Shown here in pieces: positions 55,623 through 64,000 of a DNA stretch of 64,000 nt; positions within the stretch are counted from its first letter, which is position 1; the number at the start of each line of letters is the position of its first letter. Source of the DNA: Cerasicoccus sp. TK19100 (GTDB lineage Bacteria; Verrucomicrobiota; Verrucomicrobiia; Opitutales; Cerasicoccaceae). The DNA lies in assembly GCF_027257155.1 (NCBI RefSeq), contig NZ_JAPWDU010000002.1, positions 1-64,000 on the forward strand, in the 5' to 3' direction. The notes below the pieces were generated by a model, which did not search any database, was not told where the DNA came from, and saw only the letters and a program-made list of their open reading frames with translations. Both the position numbers and the translations under genes were made by a program.

Positions 55623-55996
<374 letters not shown>

Positions 55997-61846: not shown

Positions 61847-62107
61847 TTAGTACATTTCCAGAATCTGCTCGCGGCGCATGCTGTACTCTGCCGGAGTCAT
61901 ACCACCAGAGGCGTAGCTGCGGTCGAGCTGCTGCATTTGCATGACGCGTTTTTCGCTGGCAGTCATTTGCTGAGCTGCAGCTGCGGGTGATTCAGCCATT
62001 GGCTCGGCGGGCTTGGTCGTCGTCGTGTCTGCGGTATCAGTTGATTCGCAGCCAACGTTTACGAGCAGGCCAGCGAGTAGGGTGATGATGAGTAGCGATT
62101 TATTCAT
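61847..62107 (-). CDS. Small lipoprotein
   Basis: An 86-residue secreted lipoprotein: signal 'MNKSLLIITLLAGLLVNVGC', lipobox VNVGC with Cys20 (a Val at -3 and Gly at -1), then a Thr/Ala/Pro-rich tether and a helical C-terminus with 'ASEKRVMQMQQLDRSYASGG' that ends 'MRREQILEMY'. Short amphipathic C-terminal sequence of this kind (SHOCT-like) often mediates oligomerisation. Family not recognised. Just upstream of holB on the same strand with a 17-base gap. Confidence 0.8.
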   Translation of the reverse strand: MNKSLLIITLLAGLLVNVGCESTDTADTTTTKPAEPMAESPAAAAQQMTASEKRVMQMQQLDRSYASGGMTPAEYSMRREQILEMY

Positions 62108-62200: not shown

Positions 62201-62228
62201 TTGACAAGGCGCGCGGTCTTTTCATTAT
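62201..62228 (+). promoter_or_regulatory. Sigma-70 promoter of nusA
   Basis: TTGACA (62201-62206), 16-base spacer, CATTAT (62223-62228; four of six). It starts transcription near 62235, giving a leader of about 70 bases with a terminator-like hairpin. Confidence 0.65.
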
Positions 62229-62260
62229 CGACGGTTAAAACAACTATCCGGTCAAACGAT

Positions 62261-62286
62261 AGGTGGGTCTCGGCCCACTTTTTTTT
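62261..62286 (+). terminator. Attenuator-like terminator in the nusA leader
   Basis: Stem 62261-62267 with 62274-62280 (GTGGG/CCCAC core plus A-U and G-U pairs), six-base loop, followed at once by a run of eight T (62279-62286). It ends 19 bases before the nusA ATG, inside the leader of the promoter at 62201, with no upstream gene on this strand. It should act as an attenuator on nusA itself. Confidence 0.8.
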
Positions 62287-62305
62287 ATTTTAAAAACCCA
62301 CACCA

Positions 62306-63550
62306 ATGAGCAACGAAATCCTGTCAGTCCTCGAATACATGGAAAAGGAAAAGGGAATCAGTCGTGATGACATGATTCAGACTATTTCCTCTGCGATTCG
62401 CAATGCGGCGCAACGCGGCGTCAACGCAGGCCAGGAGCTGAAGGTAGAGATCAATCCCCGCAATGGTGCCCTCAAGGCCTGGGCGGAGCTTACGGTGGTC
62501 GACTCGGTCAGTGATCCTACCAGCGAAATCCATATTGAAAAGGCCGGCGTCTATAAGAAAGACGCCCAGATCGGTGACCTCGTTTACCGCGAAGTCGATC
62601 CAGCATTCCTCGGCCGCATTGCCGCTCAGACTGCCCGTCAGGCAATCATGCAGCGCATCCGCCAGTTTGAGAAGGAGCGTATTTTTGACGACTATAAGGA
62701 CCAAGTGGGCGACGTCGTCACCGGTGTGGTTCGCCGCCGCGAGCGTGGCGACTTGATCGTCGACCTCGGTAAGGCCGAAGCCGTGCTGCCGCCGCGTGAG
62801 CGCGTGCCCGGCGAAGATTACGCCCCGGGTGAGCGCATTCGCTGCCTGCTGCTGAAGATTGACACCACCCCGCGCGGGCCGGAGCTAATCCTCAGCCGCG
62901 CCTCCCTGCATTTTGTCCGCCGCCTGTTTGAGCTGGAAGTCACGGAAATCGCTGATGGCACCGTTTCGATTGAAGGGATGGCACGTGAGCCAGGTTACCG
63001 TTCGAAGCTGGCCGTCCACAGCAACGACACCAAGGTCGACCCGGTCGGTGCTTGCGTCGGTGCGCGTGGTGCCCGCGTTAAGAGCATTGTTCGCGAGCTC
63101 GGCGGTGAAAAGATCGATATTATTAAGTTCGATCCGGACCCCATTGCCTTGCTCCACGAAGCGATCAAGCCGGCTATTCCGCGCAACATCCGCATGGACG
63201 AAGAGCACCGCCGCATCTACTTCGAAGTCAACGAGGAAGACCTTTCCATCGCCATTGGCCGTCGCGGTCAAAACGCGAAACTGACCTCAAAGCTCCTGGG
63301 CTGGCGCCTCGACATCGGCAAGCTCAAGGTGCAAGAGCAGGGATTCGACGAAAAGCGCCAGGAGGCGATTTTGTTGTTGGCGGAACGCACCGGCCTGCAA
63401 GTGCCGCGCGCGGCAATTCTCGTCGACAACGGCTTGAACAACATCGAGGCATTTGCCGGTGTTGAAGCCGACGACCTCATGGACATGGGCCTCAACGAAG
63501 AAGAAGCCAACATGGTCATCGCCAAGGTAGCCGAATCGATTTCTGGCTAA
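62306..63550 (+). CDS. nusA: Transcription termination/antitermination factor NusA
   Basis: A 414-residue RNA polymerase-binding factor. N-terminal domain (1-130), S1 domain (about 131-205; '[20 protein letters not shown]'), KH1 ('[21 protein letters not shown]') and KH2 ('[21 protein letters not shown]'), then one C-terminal helix-hairpin-type repeat (about 345-414). Start at 62306 ([17 protein letters not shown]). No rimP gene precedes it, unlike the usual rimP-nusA-infB order; infB follows 67 bases later. Leader attenuation suggests autoregulation. Confidence 0.96.
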
Positions 63551-63617: not shown

Positions 63618-64000
63618 ATGAGCCGCAGAATATATGAGATCTCCAAGGAACTCGATATGGAGAACAAGGAGGTCATGGAAATCCTGCGCGAGCGGGGGTT
63701 TGAGGTGAAGAGTGCGTCCAGCACGATCGACAACATCTCAGCCGAAGCATTTATTGACGAATTTCGCAATCAGGCAAACTCCGAGGCTGAAAGCCCGGAG
63801 GAAACCGCGCCTGCGCCGGAAACTCCAACTCCAGCGCCCGCGCCCGCGCAACCCGTTAAGCCGAACATACCCGGTAACGCGATTGTAAAGTCCAAGGAAG
63901 ACCTGCAACGCGAGCGCGCGGAAAAAGAGGCCGCTGAAAAGAAGGCCCGCGAAGATGAAATCAACCGTCGCCGCGAAGAACGTGAAGCCGCTGCCCAGCC
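63618..64000 (+). CDS. infB: Translation initiation factor IF-2 (N-terminal part)
   Basis: Start at the ATG at 63618 (MSRRIYEISKELDMENKEVMEILRERGFEVKSA, cited here by its parts RRIYEISKELD and VMEILRERGFEVK), a typical IF2_N domain that binds the ribosome, then an Ala/Pro/Glu-rich linker with 'TPAPAPAQPVKPN' and 'KEAAEKKAREDEINRRREER'. The window ends inside the gene; the GTPase domain is outside. Follows nusA as usual. Confidence 0.93.
   Translation, partial: MSRRIYEISKELDMENKEVMEILRERGFEVKSASSTIDNISAEAFIDEFRNQANSEAESPEETAPAPETPTPAPAPAQPVKPNIPGNAIVKSKEDLQRERAEKEAAEKKAREDEINRRREEREAAAQ

Follow-up and report, generated by a model that had tools for sequence, protein, structure and literature searches.

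According to the accessible portions of the published accounts, the closest described relative of the element discussed here is the rimP-leader, a terminator of the form GGGc...gCCC followed by a U-tract, situated 4–130 nt before the operon and, in its general form, lacking a visible antiterminator (Naville & Gautheret 2010, PMC2965389). The same account leaves open whether RimP or NusA is the agent at this leader, which is very widespread, with NusA favoured (PMC2965389). Its main text (supplementary lists apart) does not contain the word "Verrucomicrobi", and our literature search found nothing on a nusA leader element in Verrucomicrobiota. In B. subtilis, nusA is controlled by NusA-stimulated termination in the leader (Mondal et al. 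2016, as related in the review PMC12288461). For S. agalactiae, the accessible text describes RNA-seq data that place transcript ends 31 nt downstream of the start of the rimP-nusA operon, with a short and a long RNA from gbs0413–gbs0418, and suggests NusA feedback (PMC4448216). NusA feedback has also been reported (cited in PMC2965389 and PMC4448216) for the E. coli metY-rimP-nusA-infB operon, which is described as having several promoters and terminators.

The window, by which we mean the entire analysed stretch of 64,000 nt from Cerasicoccus sp. TK19100 (NZ_JAPWDU010000002.1, positions 1 to 64,000), carries a leader of comparable layout. The features are as follows.

61847–62107, minus strand: 86-aa ORF, divergent from nusA and the closest ORF upstream of the leader
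62201–62228, plus strand: sigma-70-type promoter from a pattern scan, with TTGACA (62201–62206), a 16-nt spacer and CATTAT (62223–62228)
62233–62237, plus strand: predicted transcription start, around 62235, placed from the −10 box
62244–62262, plus strand: small upstream hairpin CTATC(CGGTCAAAC)GATAG, its final two bases shared with the terminator foot
62261–62280, plus strand: terminator hairpin AGGTGGGT-CTCG-GCCCACTT, arms 62261–62268 and 62273–62280, −10.3 kcal/mol
62279–62286, plus strand: U-tract (T8), with the predicted 3′ end of a short RNA at about 62286
62306–63550, plus strand: nusA, 414 aa (TIGR01953, 372 bits; NusA_N, S1 and KH domains)
63618–63998, plus strand: 5′ part of infB (IF2_N domain), the gene continuing beyond the window end

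The initial annotation had read this locus as promoter, short leader, hairpin, T8 and then nusA, an order confirmed by the sequence and the pattern scan and, for nusA-infB, by domain search. In the window sequence about 30 nt lie between promoter and stem and 19 nt between T8 and the nusA ATG, and the terminator hairpin ends 25 nt before nusA, which is here the first gene of the operon and encodes a protein 97% identical to C. frondis NusA. Since the closest upstream ORF (61847–62107) is on the minus strand, there is no nearby co-directional gene feeding into the leader; the product of this ORF matches nothing in NCBIfam or Pfam and has, by eye, a lipoprotein-signal-like N-terminus. Inspection by eye gave no leader peptide across about 70 nt and no Shine-Dalgarno-like sequence in 62287–62305, the latter being similar in many Opitutales leaders. 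An Rfam 15 search of the leader returned no family at gathering score and, with the cut-off relaxed to E ≤ 10, nothing beyond three chance matches on the minus strand. The window also holds a tmRNA gene at 55623–55994 (Rfam RF00023, 133.8 bits).

Within the 4 kb scanned, neither the promoter pattern (1 versus 1.6 in shuffles) nor the terminator pattern (3 versus 4.8) is above chance, and folding gave modest z-scores (−1.9 for 62234–62290, −0.7 for 62234–62310). The case for the hairpin rests on comparison. We sampled 189 nusA leaders of the phylum, with L050 left out as its nusA match starts at residue 6, and merged 16 duplicate groups to arrive at 173 distinct leaders. The scanner returned a hairpin with T-tract in 155 of these, three of which (L157, L190, L192) were judged spurious, leaving 152. 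Conservation of the leader hairpin in related genomes, a check put forward in the initial annotation, was run on this sample: a terminator that scores at least 20 and lies no more than 80 nt from the start is present in 145 of the 173 distinct leaders. By comparison, five sets of dinucleotide-shuffled leaders yielded 2, 1, 3, 2 and 2 out of 173, and a 464-kb portion of the own genome yielded 18 out of 314 genes. Among those 18 genes, only nusA has the G[TC]GGG motif; a strict G[TC]GGG stem is found in 144 of the 173 leaders, and across the phylum the hairpin lies 13–111 nt from the start codon. A convincing hairpin is absent from 21 of the 173 leaders (18 misses and the three judged spurious), so that nusA is able to do without it. 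Reduced Opitutales genomes tend toward loss, the hairpin being absent in six of eight genomes below 1.4 Mb versus two of 42 larger ones (Fisher p 5 × 10−5; some genomes are incomplete). Leaders that have lost it include L113, L125, L126, L128, L129 and L131, from Opitutales genomes of 0.8–1.3 Mb.

Alignment A1 comprises 116 of the 152 leaders; each distinct stem is represented once for Opitutales, and each distinct hairpin once for the other groups. Its ten-pair stem consists of 93.7% standard pairs, a percentage inflated by the picking of all rows via the pairing scanner, and the shuffle and slide controls lessen this bias without removing it. Changes on both sides occur in eight of the ten pairs over the 116 rows, and the covariation score of 0.403 compares with 0.265 (sd 0.009) for shuffled alignments, is reached by none of 500 shuffles and drops to at most 0.199 after sliding by up to 3 columns. 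The stem consensus reads AGNGGG...CCCRCU, with one G-C pair invariant and the T positions of the U-tract at least 90% conserved in A1. Over the 116 rows the last core pair is C-G in 36, U-A in 20 and U-G in 19; the window, with core GGGT...GCCC, has U-G at this variable position.

From A1, and thus from Verrucomicrobiota leaders only, we built covariance model R1. Its top match in the 5.07-Mb own genome is the window leader (36.9 bits). The second match, of 29.4 bits (G000:C8), lies just past the stop of a 634-aa ORF, which we take to be phosphoglucomutase-like; we rejected it as a second leader copy, the position after the stop looking like that of an ordinary 3′ terminator. At E ≤ 0.01 over 193 phylum genomes R1 has 103 matches, spread over 90 genomes; of these matches 64 are just upstream of nusA, 24 elsewhere and 15 in genomes without a listed nusA place, and R1 misses half of the 193 genomes at this threshold. 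The element being short, R1 is nusA-linked yet not fully specific. Applied to 13 nusA loci from outside the phylum, the model found the leader in eight, at E ≤ 0.053 and always on the operon strand: Sinorhizobium (30.4 bits), Methylobacterium (28.8), Vescimonas (27.8), B. velezensis (25.9), Subdoligranulum (23.5), Acetoanaerobium (23.4), Niveibacterium (22.1) and Monoglobus (19.6). In all four annotated loci of these eight the match stands just before the annotated rimP. The Amphritea match is weaker than the 14.5 bits of E. coli and second in its locus, and the Neochlamydia, Nonomuraea and Legionella nusA loci gave no match in place. Because a model derived from Verrucomicrobiota alone finds its counterpart in Bacillus, alphaproteobacteria and clostridia, we take the Verrucomicrobiota leader to be the rimP-leader element.

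The promoter is tied to the hairpin as well. In 135 of 149 leaders a TTGAC lies no more than 110 nt upstream of the hairpin, versus 14.5 expected by shuffling (L065, L080 and L117, without anchor, were left out of the 152 for this count), and TAnnnT peaks at spacers of 16–18 (44 of 104). With the closest TTGAC within 110 nt taken as the promoter (138 of 152 leaders), the distance from the −35 box to the loop is 68 nt in Opitutales (quartiles 66–69, SD 3.5, n = 104), exactly 68 nt in the window, and again 68 nt in other classes (quartiles 67–70, SD 6.4, n = 34). The distance from hairpin to start codon is variable, at 13–66 nt in Opitutales (median 22–23) and 24–108 nt in other classes. It is the promoter and the hairpin that are kept together, and not the hairpin and the start codon. 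A consensus promoter search free of the TTGAC requirement placed its top candidate at 64–72 nt in 95 of 152 leaders. In the R1-positive loci of other phyla the top candidate is at 71 nt in B. velezensis, 64 in Monoglobus and 63 in Vescimonas, Subdoligranulum has a lower-ranked candidate at 66 nt, and the remaining four of the eight yielded no convincing one. In the accessible parts of the literature on the B. subtilis, rimP-leader and S. agalactiae leaders we found no mention of a fixed promoter–hairpin spacing.

The window hairpin, at −10.3 kcal/mol, and the Opitutales hairpins, with a median of −12.3, are weak beside 27 3′ terminators taken from the own genome, whose median is −20.4. The comparison was made with the own genome because five of the 16 putative 3′ terminators from Opitutales loci carry the nusA motif and are probably leaders themselves. 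A weak hairpin is typical of NusA-dependent terminators, and that of the window fits such a site, as expected.

No rimP gene precedes nusA in the window, as the initial annotation had remarked, and RimP domains are undetectable across the sampled phylum, with PF02576 in none of 193 genomes, all at least 90% complete, and PF17384 in none of 96; among the control genomes, 10 of 14 were positive for both. Within the class, PF02576 is absent from all 126 good genomes. Weak matches in two of 141 class genomes (G087 and G121, 89% and 80% complete), inside frames of over 1000 aa, were not accepted as RimP. A RimP so diverged as to escape both Pfam models is possible. RimP is otherwise widespread in bacteria, and its absence, which had been called unusual, is so among bacteria at large and ordinary for Verrucomicrobiota. 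With rimP missing, the element stands directly before nusA. The nearest gene upstream of nusA varies from genome to genome and is divergent in the window, in 64 of the 109 Opitutales loci and in 35 of the 59 others, so that the hairpin is not the terminator of that gene; among 19 listed co-directional neighbours of non-Opitutales nusA loci, none looked RimP-like by eye. At G244:C69 and G254:C69 the nusA reading frame stays open a long way upstream, giving open frames of 1301 and 1018 aa and probably reflecting high G+C, with a start codon at the usual place in L178.

In Opitutales a second, upstream hairpin overlaps the terminator foot, as CTATC...GATAG in the window and CTTTC...GAAAG elsewhere. 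Its mean score over 79 nonredundant Opitutales leaders is 9.97, versus 7.31 with species-swapped upstream halves (8.86 in the highest of 100 swapped replicates) and 7.05 after shuffling, and by eye four Cerasicoccus leaders keep its stem with differing loops. It is not enriched in other classes (6.12 versus 5.95 swapped, 43 leaders), and a broader duplex test gave no signal for it. Given an overlap of two bases, its effect in the window may be small; our guesses are that it competes for the terminator foot or acts as a pause hairpin. We rejected an antiterminator formed between the upstream leader and the terminator 5′ arm, the mean z for such pairing being −0.02 in 105 Opitutales leaders; the values elsewhere are +0.24 (12 leaders, rest of class) and −0.07 (35, rest of phylum). 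An outer stem joining the upstream leader to sequence after the U-tract is present elsewhere in the class (mean z −1.59 over 12 leaders of other orders; for example L133, L134, L139 and L143), weak in the remaining phylum (−0.42, 35 leaders) and absent in Opitutales (−0.12, 105 leaders), and therefore forms no part of the case for the window. The B. subtilis scheme reportedly needs no second structure.

We consider it likely that the feature is a Verrucomicrobiota rimP-leader attenuator directly before nusA-infB, through which NusA limits its own synthesis. RNA polymerase would start at about 62235 and meet the weak G-rich/C-rich hairpin and U-tract about 25–50 nt further on. A share of transcripts would stop at the U-tract to give RNAs of about 50 nt, the remainder continuing into nusA-infB. 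By raising pausing and hairpin-dependent release, NusA would enlarge the stopped share, and abundant NusA would thus mean less synthesis of NusA and IF-2. Of the possible autoregulation raised in the initial annotation, the regulatory leader terminator is strongly supported, the hairpin being conserved, covarying, set at a fixed distance from its promoter and similar to the rimP-leader, while termination at this leader, NusA as its driver and the direction of feedback are steps that we infer. As to the agent, NusA is supported by precedent (B. subtilis, S. agalactiae, E. coli), by the weak hairpin and by the placement of the element directly before nusA in genomes without rimP; with rimP lost and the leader kept, NusA is favoured over RimP as the leader's reason to exist.

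A fixed and a regulated terminator cannot be told apart in sequence, and the hairpin might simply stop a constant share of transcripts, setting the nusA-infB level without NusA feedback. The lack of antiterminator pairing with the 5′ arm (mean z −0.02, 105 Opitutales leaders) accords with such a fixed damper. Against it are the phylum-wide conservation of stem sequence and structure, matching rimP-leaders elsewhere, and the regulation by NusA of the only case described as tested in the accessible text of PMC12288461, that of B. subtilis; we regard it as unlikely. Read-through might also be under the control of another factor, be it cold-shock proteins, NusG, a ribosome-assembly protein or a small molecule, with the Opitutales upstream hairpin as the switch. 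That hairpin does overlap the terminator foot above expectation (9.97 versus 7.31, 79 leaders), and for the operon of E. coli a role of Csp antitermination has reportedly been put forward. The accessible part of a 2019 E. coli study disputes that proposal, and in other classes the upstream hairpin is not enriched (6.12 versus 5.95, 43 leaders) and the terminator is the same, so that we give this reading a smaller chance still. For the preferred reading of NusA feedback, too, the Opitutales hairpin is a point against, as a further signal may be at work.

The stretch of about 50 nt delimited by promoter and terminator would suit a separate small RNA, whose 3′ end, or that of an upstream gene, the hairpin might form while standing before nusA by accident. 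The element accompanies nusA across the phylum, though, the neighbour is divergent in the window and most loci and differs between genomes, and the pattern scan gave no other promoter candidate between 62228 and nusA, which together leave an accidental placement very improbable. Proximity of the hairpin to the start codon in Opitutales (median 22–23 nt) could point instead to a role in translation or stability of the nusA messenger. This we find scarcely credible in view of the conserved U-tract and of a promoter–hairpin distance that is held against a widely variable hairpin–start distance.

Returning to NusA feedback as the preferred reading, the hairpin loop lies about 68 nt from the −35 box, at about +33, where sigma would be leaving and NusA arriving. 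Tentatively, and with considerable doubt, we suggest that the leader may gauge how fast NusA loads onto early complexes rather than its occupancy in steady elongation, the Opitutales upstream hairpin tuning the gauge. If this is true, the rimP-leader elsewhere would in fact belong to nusA, with RimP carried along in the operon. Retention of the element before nusA in a phylum where RimP is undetectable amounts to a natural experiment pointing to NusA, and the fixed promoter–hairpin spacing offers a testable handle on how NusA is gauged.

Set beside the known leaders, the element shares with the rimP-leader the G-rich 5′ arm, the C-rich 3′ arm, the U-tract and the position before a nusA/infB operon, at a distance (25 nt in the window, 13–111 nt in the phylum) within the 4–130 nt described for that family. 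As to an antiterminator, the 5′ arm gave no pairing signal, but the Opitutales upstream hairpin overlaps the stem foot above chance. Unlike the rimP-leader operons, whose first gene is rimP, nusA comes first here and rimP is undetectable. With B. subtilis the locus has in common an intrinsic terminator in the 5′ leader, and the leader of the related B. velezensis matches R1 at 25.9 bits; the B. subtilis leader differs in preceding rimP and in resting on experiment where ours is an inference, and the B. velezensis hairpin lies about 110 nt before rimP, in contrast to the 25 nt before nusA in the window. S. agalactiae gbs0413–gbs0418 (rimP-nusA-infB) resembles the window in its short leader with an intrinsic terminator near the start site, and differs in having rimP and RNA data. 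In E. coli the hairpin right before rimP is the top R1 match of the 6.5-kb locus, yet a weak one (14.5 bits, E 0.064 alone). The leader element is ordinary in kind, a known type in a rimP-less phylum; its newer points are the fixed promoter–hairpin spacing and, in Opitutales, the second hairpin overlapping the terminator foot.
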